Below are positions 10,047-43,480 of a DNA stretch of 64,000 nt, in pieces. The stretch comes from Ulota crispa (Eukaryota > Streptophyta > Bryopsida > Orthotrichales > Orthotrichaceae). Position numbers and translations under genes: made by a program. The notes beneath the pieces are model-generated. The model was not told the origin of the DNA. It did not search any database and saw nothing but the letters and a program-made list of their open reading frames with translations. The stretch lies in the NCBI GenBank assembly GCA_963920765.1, contig OY987251.1:3226501-3290500 (forward strand), in the 5' to 3' direction. Position 1 is the first letter of the stretch. Each line of letters opens with the position of its first letter.

Positions 10047-10357
10047 GGGAAAACTTCAAGGATATCCCTAAAGTTTGCAATAATTTCATAAATACCCTTG
10101 CTTTTTTAGAAATTTTGTAGATACCCTTGGACCAAAATTTTCAAGCGTTTTTTTTTGTAGTGCATGCCACTTCCCTTCTCCTTTGTGTGCACAATACTCT
10201 TTCTTGTTATGCATGCACACAAAGGAAGAAGAAAAGTGGCATGCACAACAACTAAACGCCTAATTTTTTTGGTCCAAGGATATTTGTGAAATTTCTGAAA
10301 AAGCAAGGGTATCTATGAAATTATTGCGAATTTCAAGGGTATCCATGAAAATTTCCT
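10047..10357. mobile_element. Inverted-repeat MITE (GGGAAA family), intact copy
   Basis: The two arms pair over about 140 bp each. The left arm (GGAAAACTTCAAGGATATCC...) is matched on the opposite strand by the right arm (GGAAATTTTCATGGATACCC...). Inner arms also pair, around CATGCCACTTC and its complement. Near the right end the words CAAGGGTATCTATGAAATTA and CAAGGGTATCCATGAAAATT lie exactly 30 bp apart. The arm therefore already holds about one and a half copies of the unit amplified at 17255–19845. It has no coding capacity. Confidence 0.82.
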
Positions 10358-16558: not shown

Positions 16559-16848
16559 GGGAAAAATTTCATGAACATCCTTGAAGTTTGCAATATTTAC
16601 ATAGATACCCCGGCTTTTTCAGAAATCACACAAATATTGTTGGATCAAAAATTTCAAGCATTTGTATTTGTTGTGCATGTCACTCCCCTTCTTCCTTTGT
16701 GCACAGGTTGCTTAAATTTTGTTTCATTACATTCCCCTCTTCAACATTGGTTGTGATAAAAGTACAAGCACAACAAACAAATGCCAAAAAATTATAGTCC
16801 AATGGTATTTGTATAATTTCTGAAAAAACAAGAGTATCTATGTAAAAA
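16559..16848. mobile_element. Second GGGAAA-family MITE, source of the minisatellite
   Basis: Begins GGGAAAAATTTCATGAACATC and follows the copy at 10047–10357 through both arms (CTTTTTCAGAAAT..., GTGCATGTCACTCCCC..., and, on the right, TTTCTGAAAAAACAAGAGTA). The left arm at about 16581–16611 reads, on the opposite strand, exactly as one unit of the 30-bp array that follows. The right arm runs directly into that array, apart from the insert at 16849–17254. Confidence 0.75.
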
Positions 16849-17254
16849 GGGAATTACTACACAAACACCCTAAATTGCTAATGGGACACCCCCTCTAAGC
16901 ATGAAAATGTGATTTTTAATGCTAATTTTGCTAAAAAATATATTTGGATAAAAAGATTTGTTTTACCTTTATCATTCTAATGCTACACTAAAAAAAATAG
17001 GTGTGCTTAAATTTCAAACTAAAAATACAAGACTTTTGAGTTACTTAAAGCAAAAATATATCAAAAATATTATTGGTGCAATAATATTTCAACAAAAATT
17101 TGTATTTGTCATGTTTTCTTTCAAAGAGGTGATAATGTCATGATTGAATGAATGATGGATCACTTAATAAATCAAATACAACACTATATTATCAAATTTC
17201 ATGCTCAGAGGGGGTGTCTCCTTAGCAACTTAAGGTGTTGTTATAGTAAATCCC
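16849..17254. mobile_element. MULE-type MITE inserted in the MITE/minisatellite
   Basis: The left end (GGGAATTACTACACAAACACC) is matched in inverse by the right end (...GGTGTTGTTATAGTAAATCCC), with about 58 bp of terminal inverted repeat up to CTCTAAGCATGAAA and its complement. The flanks read ATGTAAAAA and ATGTAAATA, a likely 9-bp target duplication with one change. Long terminal repeats plus a 9-bp duplication fit Mutator-like MITEs. A related copy lies at about 25730–26245. Confidence 0.78.
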
Positions 17255-19845
17255 ATGTAAATACTGCAAATTTAAGACGTATCTCTGTAAATATTGCAAA
17301 CTTCAGAGGTATCCATGTAAATACCTATGTAAAATATTGCAAACATTTAAGGTATCTATGTAAATATTGCACACTTCAAGGGTATCTATGTAAATATTGC
17401 AAATTTAAGGGATATCTATGTAAATAAGGTAGGAGGCTCATAAACCACACATCTAAGAGCTGATTGTCATTTTGGAGAAGTTAAATTGTTTGAAACAATT
17501 TTTAGTAAATTTTGGTAGGAAAAAAAATAAAATTTGCATCTAACCTAAGTTGTTTCATATTTTTTGGGCCTTTGTGGAATTAGTTATGAATTTTTGAAGT
17601 TCAAACACAGTGGTCATTAAAACCAATCACCCCTTCACGTGTACACCATTGGTACATGAGAGAAAGCAAAATGTACCTTTTAGACCTTGATAGGTGTTAA
17701 TTACCAATTGGTCTATGAGCATCTTACCTTATTGCAAACTTCAAAGGTATCTATGTAAATAATGCAAACTTCAAGGAATTTATGTAAAAAATGCAAACCA
17801 CAGGGGTATCTATGTAAATATTGCAAACCACGAGGTGTCTAAGTAAATATTGCAAACCACAAGGGTGTCTATGTAAATATTGTAAACTTTAGGGGTGCCT
17901 ATGTAAAAACTGCAAACCACAGGGGTGTCTATGTAAATAATGCAAACTTCAGAGGTATTTATGTAAATATTGCAAACCACAAGGTGTCTATGTAAATATT
18001 GCAAATTTCATGGGTGTCTATGTAAATATTGCAAACTTCAAGGGCACCTATGTAAATATTGTAAACCACAGGGGTGTCTATGTAAATATTGCAAATCACA
18101 GGGGTGTCTATGTAAATATGGCAAACTATAGAGGTGTCTATGTAAATATTGCAAACCACAGGGGTGTCTATGTAACTATTGCAAACTTCAGGGGTATCTA
18201 TGTAAATATTGCAAATCACAAGGGTGTCTATGTAAATATGGCAAACTATAGAGGTGTCTATGTAAATATTGCAAACCACAGGGGTGTCTATGTAAATAAT
18301 GCAAACTTCAGAGGTATTTATGTAAATATTGCAAACCACAAGGTGTACGTAAATATTGCAAACCTCATGGGTGTCTATGTAAATATTGCAAACTTCAAGG
18401 GTATCTATGTAAATATTGCAAACCACAGGGGTATCTATGTAAATATTGCAAATCACAGGGGTGTCTATGTAAATATGGCAAACTATAGAGGTGTCTATGT
18501 AAATATTGTAAACCACATGGGTGTCTATGTAACTATTGCAAACTTCAGGGGTATCTATGTAAATATTGCAAACCATAGGGGTGTCTATGTAAATATTGCA
18601 AACCACAGGGGTGTCTATGTAGGTATTGCAAACTTCATAGGTATCTATGTAAATATTGCAAACCACAGGGGTGTCTATGTAGGTATTGCAAACTTCATAG
18701 GTATCTATGTAAATATTGCAAACCACAGGGGTGTCTATGTAAATATTGCAAACTTTGGGGGTCTCTATGTAAGTATTGCAAACCACAGGGGTGTCTATGT
18801 AAATATAACAAACTTTAGGGGTGTCTATGTAAATATTAAAAACCACAGGGGTATCTATGTAACTATTGCAAACTTCAAAGGTATCTATGTAATTATTGCA
18901 AACCACAAGGGTGTCTATGTAACTATTGCAAACCTCAGGGGTATCTATGTAAATATTGCAAACCACAGGGGTGTCTATGTAAATATTGCAAACCACAGGG
19001 GTGTCTATGTAAATATTAAAAACCACAGGGGTGTCTATGTAAATATGGCAAACTATACAAGGGTGTCTATGTAAATATTGCAAACCACAAGGGTGTCTAT
19101 GTAAATATTGCAAACTTCAAGGGTATCTATGTAAATATTGCAAACTTCAAAGGTATCTATGTAAATATTGCAAACCACAAGGGTGTCTATGTAAATATTA
19201 CAAACTTCAAGGGTATCTATGTAAGTATTGCAAACCATAGGGGTGTCTATGTAAATATGGCAAACTATACAGGTGTCTATGTAAACATTGCAAACCACAA
19301 GGGTGTCTATGTAAATATTGCAAACTTCAAGGGTATCTATGTAAATATTGCAAACTTCAAAGGTATCTATGTAAATATTGCAAACCACAAGGGTGTCTAT
19401 GTAAATATTACAAACTTCAAGGGTATTTATGTAAATATTGCAAACCACAAGGGTGTCTATGTAAATATCACAAACTTCAAGGGTATCTATGTAAATATTG
19501 CAAACCACAAGGGTGTCTATGTAAATATCACAAACTTCAAGGGTATCTATGTAAATATTGCAAACCACAAGGGTGTCTATGTAAATATTACAAACTTCAA
19601 GGGTATCTATGTAAGTATTGCAAACCATAGGGGTGTCTATGTAAATATTGCAAACTTCAAGGATGTATATGTAAATATCTATGAAAATATGACAAACTTC
19701 AAGGGTATCTGTGTAAATATGTACGTAAATATGGCAAGCTTCAAGGGTATCTATGTAAATATTGCAAATTTCGTGGGTATCTATGTAAATATTGCAAACT
19801 TCGTGGGTATTTATGTAAATATTGCAAACTTCAGGGGTTTTTCCG
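17255..19845. repeat. 30-bp minisatellite, about 70 units plus a 5' block
   Basis: Tandem units of 30 bp share the core TCTATGTAAATATTGCAAAC and then carry either a CACAGGGGTG-type or a TTCAAGGGTA-type half. The main block is 17732–19845; a shorter block lies at 17255–17424, split off by the MITE at 17425–17731. Units form higher-order repeats: 60-bp dimers at 19380–19620, and a 210-bp block starting at 19079 that recurs at 19289. The unit length is a multiple of three and lacks stops in several frames, so long repetitive frames appear on both strands; these are not treated as genes. The last unit runs into TTTTTCC near 19840, like the terminus of the MITE family. Confidence 0.95.
17425..17731. 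mobile_element. MITE inserted at TA inside a minisatellite unit
   Basis: The ends AGGTAGGAGGCTCATAAACC and AGGTAAGATGCTCATAGACC (right end, inverse strand) match at 17 of 20 positions and sit next to TA on both sides. Joining the flanks at a single TA gives TATGTAAATATTGCAAAC, exactly the array unit. The insertion is therefore younger than at least part of the array. It is non-coding; the class is probably Tc1/mariner-like from the TA. Confidence 0.85.
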
Positions 19846-20773
19846 AGGATTTAACTCAAAGGGGGCGGAAAGCGACGACCGGAAAGGAATTCGTTCGTTA
19901 TTATCGACGATACTTACGCTTGTTCGTCGGCCTTCGTCGAGATGGCTCGTTCGTCACGGGGGGACGGAGCCCAGACGCGGTCGTAGGCCCTAGGTCGGGT
20001 TCAAGCAAAAGAGAGCATCATCAGCGTCGTCGTCGTCGTCGTCGCCACCATTGCTCCGATGCACAAGCTGCTCCTCCTCCTCGCACTCCCCCTTGCAGCT
20101 CTTCCGATTAAGCTTACTTTCTCCACACCTGATCTCCGCCTCTGCAACCTCCTTTCCCATGCGCTCGCGCAGACGCCACCGCTTTTGGTGCAGTATTCAC
20201 ATCAAACCAGCCATTCTTACTTCGTCCTCATCTCTAGGATCTGCGTCTCCCTTGAACTCCTCTGTCACAGCTCGCTGAGATTCCCGGTGGCCTTTCTCTC
20301 TCGGCATTTCTGCCTTCGGGAGAGCATTTGAGCTCGAGATCCCGTTCAAGCTCAGATTACAGTGACGATTTCAATACGATTTCAATGTGATTTCATTAAG
20401 ATTTTCATTAAGATTTTCATTGAGAGGTTTTCTTTTTATGAGATTTTAAAATTTTGTGGATTAGATCTGGACGAGGAGCAGTCCTGCATTAGTGCGGGAT
20501 GTGATCTGGTTGAGGAGACTCACAGGTTGAGCAAGAGTTTGTGATCATTGCGGCGAGAGTGAGAGGTGAGGGAGTATGAGCACGCGGAGGTTCGGAATCC
20601 TGGATTTCTAGTGCACGGGAAATGCAGGCTATGGAAGGAAAGCAGATCTGGAGCTGGAGACGGCTGTTGTAGTAGTGGTAGTAGTAGTAGTAGTAGTAGT
20701 TGTTGTTGTTGTAATGTCAGTGGCGCAGGGGTTTGTTGTGTGAGCGCGGGTGGGAGGGCAGAGTGAGAGCCTC
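19846..20773 (+). promoter_or_regulatory. CpG-rich upstream/leader region of the GT8 gene
   Basis: Immediately after the satellite the sequence changes to CpG-rich DNA with many CGTCG and CGACG words, unlike the CpG-poor transposon region before it. This suggests an unmethylated gene start. It holds short (GTC)n at about 20026–20046 and (GTA)n/(GTT)n at about 20668–20713, typical of plant leaders. No TATA box or transcription start can be fixed. An upstream 90-codon frame starts at ATG 20059 with a very hydrophobic beginning (MHKLLLLLALPLAAL); it may be a leader uORF or chance. Confidence 0.55.
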
Positions 20774-23700
20774 ATGAGTCTGCGATCTGAGGTCAAGAAG
20801 CAATTGCATGAGGACAAGGGCGAGAAACGGGAGGAAATGAAGGACGCTCTGGAGTCCGTCCGACGCCCCTTGCCTCGCTTCCAGAAGGACTCCACCAACT
20901 CCGTCAGCGCCCGAGCCCTCGCCAGTCCGCGCGCATGGCCGCTCCTCCCGCTCTTCGCTGCTGTGCTTTGCATGGGCATTCTCGGCATGCGCCTCTTGCC
21001 TCCGTCCAAGTACACCAAGTGGTCTGATCCTTTCAAGAGCTGGGATCCTCACGACAAGGTGCTCTCCCAATCTCCAAACCCTAGCTCCCTCTCCTCTTCT
21101 TTCTCCTCTTTCTCCTCCTCCTCCTCCTCCTCTTCCTCCTCCTCCTGCTGTCCCTTTCAATGCACTCTTCACCAAACACTCTCCTCCTCTTTATCCTCCT
21201 CCTCCTGCTGTCCCTTCCAATGCTATCTTCACCAAACACTCTCCTCCTCGCAAAATACTCACGCATACAAAATTCTTCATCTCAGCATTAATCCGTCCCT
21301 CCACTTTTCTTTACTAATACTTGGATTCCGCATTGCTTCGCCATTCTGTATTTCGCCTTCTCCTCCTTTCTCGTATACCCAAGATTTCATCGTGAAGTTT
21401 AAATTGCTTCAAGAGCGAACTAGGGCTATTTTTGAGAGGTTTCTGCGAGGTTTTGCGCTCCGTTGTACTTCTCGAACGATGCGATTTCAACGGCGTTTTT
21501 TCCTTATCTATGGCGAGAATGTAGCAGATGTGTAGATTTCAGGGACTAGTATCAGCTTCAGGTAACCCTAGCTGATTTAGGTTTTGAGAGTTCGGAGGTT
21601 TTTCTGCTCGATGTCTTTTTTTGGTGTTTAGGCTTAAGTTACTCTCTTGAAACGAAACCCTACTTCTACCTAATCATGGTATTTTCTAAAATCTTGTTTC
21701 TATGATTTATAATGGTAGTGTATGGATGCTTGTTTTTACTGGAAGTTTTTGTTACCTTTCATCCAAGTTTTTTGATCATATGAGTAGGTAGGGGGTAAAA
21801 TGTAGTTATACTTTTATGTTATTCTTGGTCAATATGAGTTGGAGTGTGTTTGCAGCTGATCTGTTTCTTATTATGGATTCTAAACCCTTTTTTTGGTTTA
21901 TTTTTGGGGGGATTGTGTATCAGTGGACGTTTAGCAGTGTGATGGGATCGATTCACTCGTGGAAGGAGGACCAGCTGGAGTACAATCGGAAGGTGTTTCA
22001 CGAGGGACTTCAATCAGGGGCGATGTTAGATTCTACTGGCAACTCAGATGACGACCTCACGAAGATTGTAGAAATGAAGAAGTATATTCATGTTTTTGTT
22101 TGTACCGATGAATCTGATCTTCGACCACTTGCAGTATTGATCAACTCCAGCATGGCTAATACTCCGTATGTCTCTTTAAACCTGCCTTTTTCATGTATTT
22201 TTTTCCTTAACTTATAAAACTTCTCTTAAACTCTATTAAACCATTTGGTTTCCTTTTTGTTTTTGGTTTGCAGACATCCAGAAAGGCTTTTTTATCATCT
22301 GGTCATGCCACCCAGTCAAAGGAATGCTGCGAAAAGGCTGAAACATCTGTTTCCAGAGGCCAGAGTGGAGATGGCCGAGTACGCTCTTGACCCTTTTCTG
22401 GCCACGGATTTGTATTTTTTACTTTATTTCTGTGGAAATAGTTTTTTCTGGAATACTGTTCTTAAACTCGCTCTCATTCATATGAAATCAGTTGAGTGTC
22501 TATAATTGTTGTAGAAACGATTTCCGTGAACCGTGCTATGACTTGTTATTGTTTATGTTGAAACGAGTAAAGGATCACGTGTTTTTGAATTTATGACGAT
22601 TTCCATGTTCCTGAGACGAAGTCTTGGATGTTGCACTTTTGGGGTTTGGAAACAGCAAGTTTATCGACATTCACGAGGTGGAAGAGCACATCACCTTTCG
22701 TAATGACACCGGAGCTCGCAAGGAGCTTGTCAGCCCCTACAATTTCTTGCCCTTCTATTTGCCTGCAACGTACAGCGATATAGAGCGAATCATCTACTTA
22801 GATTCTGATATTGTAGTAAAGGTAAGCATTCTTAGATACTACCATTTTTTCATGAATAAACCGAAACACCGGCTATAACATTCAATACAACTTTCGGTTA
22901 ATCCCATGTGACTTTTGGTTGATTTTCTTTTTGACATTAACCCTCTTTTTTGTGTTTTGTGTTTTTTTTGGGTGGGGGGGGGGGGGGGAGGTGTAACAAC
23001 GGAGCTTCGTTTGTTTGTTGATGCGCAATTTCTATTGTTTTATAGGTTTTATGATTTGTTTTGACAGGGGAATTTGGAAGAGCTGAACGATGTCGACTTG
23101 GAAGGCCACTCGGTAGCTGCCATTGAGGATTGTTCACAGCGGTTTCAAGTTTACTTCGATTTTGCCCAATTAGACGAGATCCAGCAGCGCCAGGGACCGG
23201 ACCGGCCCAGCTGGTTACCGGACGAGCCGTTCAACCGGTCCGCGTGTGTGTTCAACCGGGGCGTCCTCGTCATCGACAGCCAAAAGTGGCAGGAAGAGAA
23301 TATCACCAAAGCCATCGTCTGGTGGATGGACGAGTTTCGCAAGGCTTCTGACAAGAAGGCTCTGTACAAGTAAAAACTCTCTCTCTCTCTCTTCACTTTC
23401 AAAGTCATAAACATTTCTATTCAAACCCCACGAGATTTCCATTCAAATTTGCTACATCTCCGTTCATGTTTCGAGACATTTCCAGTCAAGTCTTGAGACA
23501 TTTCTGCTCAGAGTTTTGATACGTTTCCATTCAAGTTTTGAGACTTATCCCCACACAGAGTTTTGTGGCATTTTCATTCAAGTTCAGACAGTTCCCCCAC
23601 ATAGATTTCTGAAACATCTCTGCTCAGGGTTTTGAGACGTTTCATCCAAGTTTAGAGACTTCCCCCACACAGAGTTTTGAGACTTTTCTGCTCAGAGATT

Positions 23701-24706
23701 TGAGACATTATTTGCACAGAGTTGAGACATTTCTACTCAGAGTTTTGAGGCCTTTCCAGTCAAGTTTTGAGACATTTTGCTCAGAGTTCTGAGAAGTTTT
23801 CATTCAAGTTTTGAGACATTTCCAGTCAAGTTTAGAGACTTCCCCATACACAGTTTGGAGACTTTTCTGCTCAGAGTGTTGAAGCATTTCCAGCCAAGTT
23901 TTGGGACATCTTCATTCAAGTTTAGAGAGTTCCCCCACACAGAGTTTTGAGACATTACTGCTCCAAGTTTTGAGACGTTTTCCATTCAATTTTTGAGACT
24001 ACTCCCACACAGATTTTCGGGCATTTGCAGTCACGTTGTGAGACATTTCGTCCAAGTTTAGAGACTTCCCCTCACACAGAGTTTTGAGACATCTTGGCTC
24101 ACAGTTTTGAGACGTTTCCACTCTTAAGTTTTGAGACCTATCTCCACACACAGATTTTTAGACATTTCCAGTCAAGTTTTGAGACATCACCTGCACAGGG
24201 TTCTAGACTTTTCTGCTAAGAGTTTTGAGACATTTCCAGTCAAGTTTTTGAGGCATTATATCCGCACAGAGCTTGAGACATTTTTCATGTTTTTTAGAGC
24301 TGAAGGGGATTGGGGTGTATGTGTGGGCAGGGCGGGAATGTCGCAGCCACCGTTTCTGCTGGCGCTGTACGGGAAGCACAAGGTGCTGGACGAGACGTGG
24401 AACGTGCGGGGGCTGGGGAGGCCCAACCTGAGCGACCTGGAGAGAGTGTACTACGAGACGGGCTGGAACATGACGTTCAGCAGGACGCCCTTCATGTCGC
24501 CATTTGCACACGAGGCACACATCCTGCACTTCAACGGCAAATACAAGCCCTGGAAAGGCAAGCGCCACCGCGACCCCACGGACGACATCATCTCGCTTTG
24601 TGGAGAGCCCGAGAACAGCCAAGAGTGCGCCAGCCTCTGGTGGGAGTACCTCTCCCCCGAGGCCAACGATTTCTTAAGAAAAAAGCCCGTGTCAAAGGAC
24701 ACGTAG
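20774..24706 (+). CDS. GT8 family glycosyltransferase (GATL/galacturonosyltransferase-like), six exons
   Basis: Exons inferred from GT..AG borders with matching phases: 20774–21058, 21924–22165, 22274–22411, 22656–22821, 23068–23369, 24331–24706; total 1509 nt, 502 residues. Most donors fit the consensus; exon 1 ends at a weak AAG|GTGCTC. Residues 1–53 are basic and cytosolic-like, and 54–71 (WPLLPLFAAVLCMGILGM) form a signal anchor, so a type II Golgi membrane protein is expected. The GT8 domain starts with HVFVCTDESDLRPLAVLINS. The metal-binding DxD is LDSDIVV (about 271–273), and the C-terminal H-x2-G-x2-KPW motif is HFNGKYKPW (about 444–452). GT8 enzymes use UDP-sugars; plant relatives build pectin and other wall glycans, but donor and acceptor cannot be read here. 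No frame breaks. Assignment to GATL rather than another GT8 clade is by general resemblance only. Confidence 0.9.
21090..21260. repeat. Pyrimidine-rich TCC repeat in GT8 intron 1
   Basis: Runs of TCC/TCT with a duplicated block containing CTGCTGTCCCTT and CTTCACCAAACACTCTCCTC at about 21145–21185 and 21207–21248. It lies inside the inferred first intron (21059–21923), close to its donor. Confidence 0.75.
22974..22988 (+). repeat. Poly-G run in GT8 intron 4
   Basis: An uninterrupted run of about 15 G directly after a T-rich stretch, within the intron 22822–23067. It could form a G-quadruplex in DNA or pre-mRNA; its length is also prone to sequencing error. Confidence 0.8.
23440..24290. repeat. 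Degenerate minisatellite filling GT8 intron 5
   Basis: Imperfect repeats built from GTTTTGAGACATTTCC, CAGTCAAG and CCCCACACAGAG words recur some 25–30 times at irregular spacing of roughly 25–40 bp. They fill nearly all of the 961-bp intron between exons 5 and 6, which explains why this is the longest intron of the gene. Confidence 0.85.
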
Positions 24707-30959: not shown

Positions 30960-31672
30960 CTCCGATGATACAGTGTATTGATCGTATCAGCCTCCGTCCT
31001 CGTCACTACTCCGGGCCTCCGGTCGGAAGCGCTGGGGTTTGTTACGGGAGCTCCGACTTCTCCCTCACCACCAGGTCTCTATTGGCACGCAAGCCTTCGC
31101 CGTATCGCTCTGCAGATGTGTGAGGATTTCGTCGAGGTCGGAGAGAGCTTAGCTTCGGCGACTTATGTCTGGAGTGAGGGAGTTTGATCGCGAACGTGGC
31201 CATTCCTAACGGCGATTGGCTGTACCGCTTTGGAGTTGTGTGAGGGTTTGGTGGAGGTCGGAGAGAGAGCTTGGCTTCGGAGACATATTCGTGGAGTGAG
31301 GGAGTTTGACTGCGACGTGGCCAACTCTAACGGCGATTGTCGGGACCGCTATGCAGCTGTGTGAGGATTTCGTTGAGGTCGGAGAGAGCTTGGCTTTGGC
31401 GACTTATTCGTGGAGTGCGGGAGTTTGATCGCGAACGTGGCCATTCCTAACGTCGATTGGCTGTACCACTTTGCAGCTGTGTGAGGGTTTGGTGGAGATC
31501 AGAGAGAGAGCTTGGCTTCGGATCGGAGGCTTATTCGTGGAGTGCGGGAGTTTGACTGCAACGTGGCTAACCCTAACGGCGAGCTCAGGGAAATGTCGAG
31601 AGCCGGCTATTGAGAGGGATCGCTGCATTTGGAGCTGCTTGGTGGAATTTGGCGTTGCACGAGGTGAGTGTC
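30960..31672 (+). promoter_or_regulatory. CpG-rich leader, likely first non-coding exon of the receptor gene
   Basis: CpG-rich DNA like the GT8 leader and unlike its flanks. At 31671–31678 it shows GAG|GTGAGT, a consensus plant splice donor. A strong acceptor (TTTTCAG) lies at 36627, just before the receptor start codon, so a first exon here and a roughly 5-kb 5' UTR intron are inferred. No cDNA evidence is available, and it could belong to a separate short gene. Confidence 0.45.
31101..31580. repeat. Four tandem copies of a ~120-bp unit in the leader
   Basis: Copies begin at about 31101, 31221, 31343 and 31462. Each contains GTGTGAGG.TT, GAGAGAGCTTGGCTTCGG and GGAGTTTGA, ending in CTAACG.CGATTG. 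Copies 1 and 3 share GATTTCGT; copies 2 and 4 share GGTTTGGTGGAG and an extra GA. The array therefore seems to be a duplicated dimer. Confidence 0.85.
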
Positions 31673-40532: not shown

Positions 40533-43480
40533 GGTTTTTCATGTAAATTGCCAAATGTAGATTTCAAGAAAGTACCATTGAGCTTCACTAAATTGACAAG
40601 TTTGACAACATTGGATTGTTTTGGTGCTCAAATGGAAAAGTTACCAAAGGGATTGAAATATTTGAAGCTCGTGAGATCTTTAAGACTTAGATTATGTGGC
40701 AAGTTGAAGTTTCTTTCCAAGGAATTGGCACATATGACATCTTTGACATCACTTGATTTGAGGGATTGTTCCAAGCTATCGGCAATACCCAAGGAATTGG
40801 GGAACTTGTCATCTTTGACATCACTTGATTTGAGTAGGTGTTCCAAGCTATCGGCAATACCCAAGGAATCGGGGAACTTGTCATCTTTGACATCACTTGA
40901 TATGAGTGAGTGTTATGAGCTATTGGCAATACCCAAGGAATTGGGGAACTTGTCATCTTTGACATCACTTGATTTGAGGGAGTGTTCCAAGCTATTGGCA
41001 ATACCCAAGGAATTGGGGAACTTGTCATCTTTGACATCACTGGATTTGAGTTGGTGTTCCAAGCTATCGGCAATACCCAAGGAGTTGGGGAACTTGTCAT
41101 CTTTGACATCATTGGATTTGAGTAGGTGTTCCAAGCTATCGGCAATACCTAAGGAGTTGGGGAACTTGTCATCTTTGACATCACTGGATTTGAGTTGGTG
41201 TTCCAAGCTATCGGCAATACCCAAGGAATTGGGGAACTTGTCATCTTTGACATCACTGGATTTGAGTAGATGTTCCAAGCTATCGGCAATACCCAAGGAG
41301 TTGGGGAACTTGTCATCTTTGACATCACTTAACTTGAGTGGGTGTTCCAAGCTATTGGCAATACCCAAGGAATTGGGGAACTTGTCATCTTTGACATCAC
41401 TTAACTTGAGTGGGTGTTCCATACTATTGGCAATACCCAAGGAATTGGGGAACTTGTCATCTTTGACATCACTTTATTTGAGTTGGTGTTACAAGCTATC
41501 GGCAATACCCAAGGAGTTGGGGAACTTGTCATCTTTGACATCACTGAACTTGAGTGGGTGTTCCAAGCTATCAGCAGTACCCAAGGAATTGGGGAACTTG
41601 TCATCTTTGACATCACTTTATTTGAGTTGGTGTTCCAAGCTATTGGCAATACCCAAGGAGTTGGGGAACTTGTCATCTTTGACATCACTGGATTTGAGTT
41701 GGTGTTACAAGCTATCGGCAATACCCAAGGAGTTGGGGAACTTGTCATCTTTGACATCACTTCATATGAGTGAGTGTTATGAGCTATCAGCAATACCCAA
41801 GGAATTGGGGAACTTGTCATCTTTGACATCACTTGATATGAGTGAGTGTTATGAGCTATCAGCAATACCCAAGGAATTGGGGAACTTGTCATCTTTGACA
41901 TCACTTGATATGAGTGAGTGTTATGAGCTATCAGCAATACCCAAGGAATTGGGGAACTTGTCATCTTTGACATCACTTTATTTGAGTTGGTGTTACAAGC
42001 TATCGGCAATACCCAAGGAGTTGGGGAACTTGTCATCTTTGACATCACTGAACTTGAGTGGGTGTTCCAAGCTATCAGCAGTACCCAAGGAATTGGGGAA
42101 CTTGTCATCTTTGACATCACTGGATTTGAGTAGGTGTTCCAAGCTATCGGCAATACCCAAGGAATTGGGGAACTTGTCATCTTTGACATCACTTGATTTG
42201 AGGGAGTGTTCCAAGCTATCAGCAATACCCAAGGAATTGGGGAACTTGTCATCTTTGACATCACTTGATATGAGTGAGTGTTATGAGCTATCGGCAATAC
42301 CCAAGGAATTGGGGAACTTGTCATCTTTGACATCACTTGATTTGAGGGAGTGTTCCAAGCTATCAGCAATACCCAAGGAATTGGGGAACTTGTCATCTTT
42401 GACATCACTTAACTTGAGTGGGTGTTCCAAGCTATCAGTAATACCCAAGGAATTGGGGAACTTGTCATTTTGACATCACTTGATTTGAGGGAATGTTCCA
42501 AGCTATTGGCAATACCCAAGGAATTGGGGAACTTGTCATCTTTGACATCACTTGATTTGAGGGAGTGTTCCAAGCTATTGGCAATACCCAAGGAATTGGG
42601 GAACTTGTCATCTTTGACATCACTGGATTTGAGTTGGTGTTCCAAGCTATCGGCAATACCCAAGGAGTTGGGGAACTTGTCATCTTTGACATCATTGGAT
42701 TTGAGTAGGTGTTCCAAGCTATCGGCAATACCTAAGGAGTTGGGGAACTTGTCATCTTTGACATCACTGGATTTGAGTTGGTGTTCCAAGCTATCGGCAA
42801 TACCCAAGGAATTGGGGAACTTGTCATCTTTGACATCACTTGATTTGAGGGAGTGTTCCAAGCTATCAGCAATACCCAAGGAATTGGGGAACTTGTCATC
42901 TTTGACATCACTTGATATGAGTGAGTGTTATGAGCTATCGGCAATACCCAAGGAATTGGGGAACTTGTCATCTTTGACATCACTTGATATGAGTGAGTGT
43001 TATGAGCTATCAGCAATACCCAAGGAATTGGGGAACTTGTCATCTTTGACATCACTTGATTTGAGGGAGTGTTCCAAGCTATTGGCAATACCCAAGGAAT
43101 TGGGGAACTTGTCATCTTTGACATCACTTGATTTGAGGGAGTGTTCCAAGCTATTGGCAATACCCAAGGAGTTGGGGAACTTGTCATCTTTGACATCACT
43201 TGATTTGAGGGAATGTTCCAAGCTATTGGCAATACCCAAGGAATTGGGGAACTTGTCATCTTTGACATCACTTGATTTGAGGGAGTGTTCCAATCTATCA
43301 GCAATACCCAAGGAATTGGGGAACTTGTCATCTTTGACATCACTTGATTTGAGGGAGTGTTATGAGCTATCGGCAATACCCAAGGAATTGGGGAACTTGT
43401 CATCTTTGACATCACTTGATTTGAGCGGGTGTTCCAAACTAATGGCTTTACCTAAGAAATTGAAGAACTTATCTACTTAG
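40533..43480 (+). pseudogene. PK-NBS-LRR immune receptor, leucine-rich repeat part, frameshifted
   Basis: From GFSCKLPNVDFKKVPLS onward the frame encodes leucine-rich repeats of the type LTSLDLSxCSKLSAIPKELG, 24 residues each. After one irregular leading repeat there are 38 units in register from 40755 to 43480, the last diverged and ending at TAG 43478–43480. Unit 24 has a one-base deletion at about 42470 (CATTTTGAC instead of CATCTTTGAC), which closes the first frame at 42473. All later units are intact in the next frame. Restoring frame would need one extra base, so this allele is either truncated after unit 24 or affected by a sequencing error in a near-identical array. LRRs of this receptor class sense ligands or hold NB-ARC off. 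Confidence 0.85.
40755..43480 (+). repeat. 72-bp tandem LRR-coding array, 38 units
   Basis: Unit 1 starts at GAT 40755 and unit 38 at GAT 43418, which fits 37 steps of 72 bp minus the one deleted base. Units are nearly identical in DNA, including silent positions; variation is mostly at the x residues (DLSWC, DLSRC, DLREC, DMSEC, NLSGC, YLSWC). Blocks are duplicated: units 4–7 recur as 26–29, and units 11–12 recur as 18–19. Open frames on the opposite strand are by-products of the 72-bp period. Confidence 0.95.

Follow-up and report, generated by a model that had tools for sequence, protein, structure and literature searches.

The 64,000-nucleotide stretch of Ulota crispa DNA analysed here (the window) was drawn from a single assembly of 274.8 Mb in 157 contigs. 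Within it lies a single MITE insertion of 3287 bp, beginning GGGAAAAATTTCATG and made up of a left arm, an interior, and a right arm expanded by about 75 extra units of 30 bp, inside which two other MITEs are nested (Table 1). Because the TSDs flank the whole element, outside the array, the array is internal to one insertion. Only 97 of 200000 random pairs of 9-mers from the nearby flanks matched at 8 or more of 9 positions, a figure to be taken as a guide only, since the right terminus could have been placed a base or two differently. A gene of glycosyltransferase family 8 (GT8) neighbours the element and stands outside the array.

Table 1. Features of the expanded MITE and its surroundings (positions within the window).
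Feature	Position	Strand	Basis
Unexpanded relative, two-word seed in arms	10047..10357	+	family comparison, sequence read
Left 9-bp TSD, AAGATTTAA	16550..16558	.	sequence read; 9-bp TSDs typical of family
Whole MITE insertion	16559..19845	+	termini, TSDs, family comparison
Array-unit core in left arm (reverse complement TCTATGTAAATATTGCAAAC)	16586..16605	-	sequence read
Inner right arm: marker (16815-16829), then start of first unit, until nested MITE2	16815..16848	+	
MITE2, nested in first array unit	16849..17254	+	8-bp TSD, 7/8 identical
First array segment	17264..17424	+	aligned as 5.7 units, 17255-17426
MITE3, nested in array unit	17427..17729	+	TA duplicated (17425-17426, 17730-17731)
Second array segment, 70.3 units	17730..19838	+	cyclic aligner; A/B alternation (60-bp period), block duplications
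Right terminus TTTTTCCG (family form ATTTTCCC)	19838..19845	+	sequence read, family comparison
Right TSD AGGATTTAA, 8/9 identical to left	19846..19854	.	sequence read
Glycosyltransferase family 8 gene, neighbour, outside array	22624..24703	+	three exon-like pieces matching PF01501

A first-pass annotation had described the locus as a MITE end grown into about 70 units of 30 bp. The array was recovered both by TRF (65.1 copies spanning 17730-19678 and additional flanking rows) and by a cyclic aligner, for which stricter penalties were adopted after lenient alignment joined unrelated sequence; the count needed correction, as the two aligned segments amount to about 76 units. A tandem array of this many units, each tens of bp long, is a minisatellite. 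Arm length gave a similar figure: the right arm measures 3016 bp from marker to terminus, or 2296 bp once the nested insertions are subtracted (415 and 305 bp including their duplications), and a standard arm covers 53 bp over that span, which leaves 74.8 extra units. The annotation also located the unit core on the opposite strand of the left arm and ended the array in a word like the MITE terminus, and both were found as described. It had the array occupying the place of the right arm; the inner right arm, with its marker, is present and the arm has been stretched rather than replaced. The two MITEs nested in it had gone unnamed in the annotation.

Two types of unit occur within the array, distinguished by the endings CCACA and TTCA, and they alternate with 52 switches against 35.0 in shuffled order, a number reached in none of 5000 shuffles, and blocks of units recur at lags of 2, 4, 7, and 12 units. 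Divergence from the consensus was 0.235 in the last seven units, 0.102 in the middle, and 0.125 in the first seven. We read this pattern as consistent with repeated slippage or unequal exchange of at least one unit at a time, accompanied by decay at the ends.

MITE2 is bordered by TGTAAAAA (16841-16848) and TGTAAATA (17256-17263), which match at 7 of 8 positions, and from this TSD length we take it to be hAT-like; its family returned 1927 first-look candidates in the genome, the best 40 of which were scored. When the flanks of MITE3 are joined by eye they restore one array unit, GTAAATATTGC. A MITE2 copy also occurs at another locus, L007, at the identical position of the 30-bp unit and between two copies of the TSD TATAAATA, within a host MITE (1501-2212) that is unexpanded and has no extra 30-bp unit; a target preference is a possible explanation of the shared position. 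At a further site (C7:17008810) the MITE alignment runs into a MITE2. A composite origin, in which MITE2 arrived together with its host, was considered and rejected in favour of separate insertions, which are more likely because the MITE2s of L007 and C7:17008810 are absent from the 40 scored closest copies. Other inverted-repeat elements are nested in the expanded MITEs L118, L035, and L031, in the first two inside the array itself; expanded arms may serve as insertion targets.

An open reading frame of 284 aa (19257-20111) crosses the array as ten-residue repeats; the 30-bp period, being divisible by 3, keeps it open. Its array part, scored as a whole protein, exceeded the cut-off for PF17807 and PF04167, with no stretch matching alone; we rejected a coding array, took these matches as repeat artefacts, and regard the frame as probably not a gene. 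The window holds three other tandem repeats: an array of 38.3 copies of 72 bp at 40717-43470 (92% matches, TRF), the unit of which resembles what we presume to be a leucine-rich-repeat coding unit; a minisatellite with periods of 23, 45, and 68 bp and AGTTTTGAGACATTTC-like words at 23435-24257, between pieces of the GT8 gene and probably intronic; and a GC-rich 120-bp repeat in four copies at 31102-31582.

The family to which the expanded element belongs is large. First-look candidates numbered 4532 with the window copy as query and 4915 with the relative at 10047-10357, the best 40 of each being scored. Most standard copies measure about 310-325 bp; they are near-palindromic, begin GGGAAAATTTCATGGATACC, and are flanked by TSDs of 9 bp that are often perfect; being short, non-coding, and numerous, with terminal inverted repeats (TIRs), they are MITEs. 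Long TIRs and 9-bp TSDs are marks of the Mutator superfamily, and a filter for standard arms and a 9-bp TSD with at most 2 mismatches retained 55 of 90 loci. The MULE domain PF10551 was matched 54 times in the genome.

Each arm in this family contains a short internal repeat. The first-pass annotation had pointed to two partial units exactly 30 bp apart in the right arm of the unexpanded relative, and GGGTATC is indeed found there at 10307 and 10337. The family consensus generalizes the observation: TTTCATGGATACCCCTG in the TIR returns 30 bp later as TTTCATAGATACCCCTG, identical at 16 of 17 positions. In the 110 arms of the 55 filtered copies, the pair at lag 30 matched at a mean of 13.9 of 17 positions, with 11 or fewer in 13 arms; at control lags of 8-27 and 33-49 (lags of 28, 29, 31, and 32 were excluded) the best 17-bp match never exceeded 12. 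The seed is thus family-wide and part of the transposon itself, as had been proposed; a general lack of the seed in other copies, which would have spoken against the proposed direction, was not seen in these arms.

To follow the fate of the seed elsewhere, the genome was queried with the array, and the best 40 of 1293 first-look candidates were scored. At each of the 39 loci so obtained outside the window, whether read by eye or called by script, the array adjoined the arm marker or a terminus of a MITE; no free 30-bp array outside a MITE was found among these loci, and with them no array that was independent of its source element and present at several sites, as a satellite would be. A pattern search added nine loci, two of which were examined: L074, and L076, where a script value of 19.70 extra units goes with a poor TSD and the call is ambiguous. 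Most of the 41 loci examined beyond the window have extra units in one arm, so that the number of tandem repeats in the TIR varies as in Foldback-type elements.

The intermediate copies that the annotation had recommended seeking are present, and range from about one to 25 added units. At loci where the script could place both ends, the extra length divided by 30 was 1.00 at L074 and L119; 2.00 at L033, L115, L116, L117, and L128; 2.93, 3.00, and 3.07 at L032, L114, and L026; and 6.07, 8.00, and 25.17 at L018, L019, and L013. Counted by hand from coordinates, L021 has 5 extra units, L129 has 6, L016 and L037 have about 8, and L014 has 11. Expansion thus proceeds mostly in whole 30-bp steps. 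The exceptions are L027 (3.87) and L034 (3.60); L123 (2.00 and 2.23), in which both arms are expanded against the usual growth of one; L126, expanded by larger blocks; L102, which is irregular; and L029 (1270-1698), whose TSD is perfect and whose right arm grew by a different repeat unit, about 59 bp long. The array of L025 sits in a remnant of half an element, and L031, L035, L036, and L118 contain further insertions.

TSDs with at most one mismatch were called by script at 13 clean loci (L013, L018, L019, L026, L029, L032, L033, L074, L114, L115, L117, L119, and L123) and at the composite L020, out of the 41. At L032 this holds for one caller; a second caller, which missed copies found by the first, chose another pair with 3 mismatches. 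The TSDs of L014, L016, and L021 were judged by eye, and at the remaining loci the pair was worse, ambiguous, or beyond the examined stretch. Among elements that could be oriented, the expanded arm was the left in 10 and the right in 4 by hand. A strict arm preference was rejected: the script gave 12 left and 7 right, and 5 hits outside the element were then removed.

Two side observations concern changes within arms. In L121 (+1.97 units in one arm and -1.07 in the other by script) and in L124, one arm is about one unit short and the other about two units or one longer, as if units had been exchanged between arms. At L020 (1497-1614 and 1743-1977) a MITE arm and its flank are locally duplicated with 3.8 and 7.7 aligned units, respectively; since the duplicate arms differ in units, length changed during or after duplication, and the pattern hints at change after it.

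The frequency of expansion was assessed by sampling copies through their interior sequence, without selection on arm length. For the interior type of the window copy, the best 40 of 2403 candidates were scored and 39 other copies assessed; the script found no extra unit in 28 of them. Eight of this type read by eye showed no extra 30-bp unit; several of the eight had the right arm truncated or lost, and in L004 the end was duplicated. In L087 and L089 the length is off by small, irregular amounts, and the left arm of L102 is longer by 1.13 units through shorter repeats, without a good TSD. For a second interior type (best 40 of 2985 scored), 32 of the 40 were assessed and 22 of these were without an extra unit; L132, L139, and L144 were shortened, L148 carried an 80-bp duplication, and L051 was miscalled owing to an adjacent copy. 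The script left L040, L055, L131, L134, and L141 uncalled, of which L134 and L141 have the standard terminus spacing. No clean 30-bp expansion was therefore found among the 71 interior-sampled copies (L040, L055, and L131 could not be settled), which indicates that expansion is rare per copy; expanded copies make up a few per cent of the family at most.

Whether the arrays arose separately was addressed by comparing 298 units from 45 stretches with at least 3 full units, a few of which are weak or spurious (e.g. L035 at 623). A fraction of 0.566 had their nearest unit in the same locus, whereas shuffling the labels 200 times gave 0.082 and at most 0.138; with the window and L013 left out, the observed and shuffled fractions were 0.404 and 0.026. 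At 29 loci the array consensus could also be compared with opposite arms: it matched the arm of its own element at 26.93 of 30 positions and those of other elements at 26.05, a fit reached in none of 20000 permutations and positive at 21 of the 29 loci. Private units were found in L013, L014, L021 (with six identical units), L024, L025, and L037. Mean identity was 0.867 within arrays and 0.815 between them. There is counter-evidence: 7 of the 29 loci fit the opposite arms of other elements better than their own, in only 11 of the 45 arrays does internal identity exceed the identity to the closest other array (for the window array, 0.830 inside against 0.842), and in 8 of the 45 it is lower than even the average for the others. 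Units tend, nevertheless, to be locus-specific, and from their clustering by locus together with the fit to the own arm, expansion looks repeated and local. Judged from unit sequences, separate expansion is well supported for the set and not proven for each locus.

The analysis covered a single assembly, and the order of events suggested here, with growth after insertion, is inferred. Most probably, a seed in the MITE arm expanded in place after insertion, by slippage or unequal exchange. The start would be the 17-bp near-perfect direct repeat, of 30-bp period, at each end of a Mutator-type MITE. In the inserted element, a 30-bp unit would occasionally be gained, seldom in both arms, when the two words slipped against each other or exchanged unequally. 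Once more full units were available, exchanges of single units and of blocks could lengthen the array in situ, using the element's own unit. In the window copy this would have led to about 76 units with the A/B dimer period, and the two nested MITEs would have landed in the array later. The molecular step itself may have been slippage, unequal exchange, or repair at excision. The growth-in-place model is limited by the loci that do not grow in whole units, by the small number of loci with a close script-called TSD (13 and L020, out of 41), and by the lack of clean expansions among the 71 sampled copies. As a broader proposition, we lean towards regarding the TIR as a dispersed, preset nucleation site from which about 40 copies separately began to expand, by one to about 75 units.

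Other histories would leave a similar locus. An already expanded progenitor might have transposed, so that the arrays are copies of one, trimmed later; the likeness of array consensuses (the mean between-locus identity given above) speaks for such inheritance, as does the fact that, at loci called by script, a gain of two units is more frequent than any other. We consider it quite unlikely, however, given the private units, the excess of nearest neighbours in the same locus, the fit to the own opposite arm, and the involvement of either arm. Growth could instead have been linked to the transposase, if gaps left by excision or transposition were repaired faultily or if extra binding sites were favoured. 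The expanded part does lie in the TIR, the expected place of such sites, and such routes have been proposed for Galileo and Foldback elements and for Tetris (PMC3573991, PMC4079207). We consider the explanation unlikely here, as expanded copies have not visibly multiplied and usually one arm alone expands, L123 being the exception.

That a 30-bp satellite came first, and that a MITE took up a piece of it or inserted beside it, is extremely improbable: the TSDs lie outside the array, all 39 scored loci (of the best 40 of 1293) are MITE-borne, and array-free copies have the seed in both arms. Nothing found here speaks for such capture, although capture of a tandem repeat by an ancestral MITE has been proposed for miDNA4 (PMC12628747). 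Tandem arrays are also hard to assemble, and the assembler might have made the length or order of the window array; this is very improbable, as the mean difference among its units is about 17%, it is anchored by the two nested MITEs, and the same pattern is seen in short arrays, which any read can span. The direction from MITE end to array, as first annotated, is therefore supported: MITE-free arrays and seedless copies, either of which would have spoken against it, did not emerge from what was examined. The same annotation called the locus the birth of a satellite. The start of an array from a transposon end stands; the word satellite is overstated, since no array seen has left its element.

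Tm1 of root-knot nematodes, of the Mutator/Foldback family, has 9-bp TSDs and variable numbers of tandem repeats in its TIRs (PMC3169594); its units of 13-15 bp are a regular part of the TIR, whereas here the usual arm has the seed only and long arrays are rare. In Tetris (TIR-220) of Drosophila virilis, tandem repeats inside the TIR have likewise grown within the element to long arrays, of up to 66 copies (PMC4079207). Its units are about 220 bp, many contigs consist of TIR-220 only, and units generally do not cluster by contig, whereas here they tend to cluster by locus and a free array was not found (best 40 of 1293). The TIRs of Galileo in Drosophila expand independently at each end (PMC3573991), so that repeat number varies between the two TIRs of a copy, as it does here; Galileo, however, belongs to the P superfamily, and its repeat region is about 210 bp in two or three copies.

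Among plant Mutator-like elements, MULEs with tandem TIRs are described from tomato, Arabidopsis, rice, and maize, with slippage between TIR motifs tentatively proposed (PMC3310237), a route like the one favoured here; in those elements, by contrast, whole TIRs are duplicated, at most three, and the tandem copies have amplified. Reviews describe arrays derived from or carried by MITEs for Xstir and miDNA4 of Xenopus (PMC9659126, PMC12628747), which belong to other superfamilies and for which stem-loop or capture routes are proposed, and a bacterial MITE holding a minisatellite has been reported (PMC4596501). In the titles, abstract openings, and passages searched, no report was found of a 30-bp seed in a TIR that had expanded separately dozens of times. 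The kind of array is known from other organisms; what is added is its replication within one genome.

The beginnings of arrays are usually inferred from finished arrays. Here one genome offers thousands of candidate seed copies and a ladder of stages, in which each copy's own opposite arm, and often its TSD, provides an internal reference. It thereby becomes possible to measure how often expansion occurs per copy, what its first step is, in which direction arrays grow, and how far this depends on seed identity. As a caution, a minisatellite beside a gene may be the grown end of a transposon.
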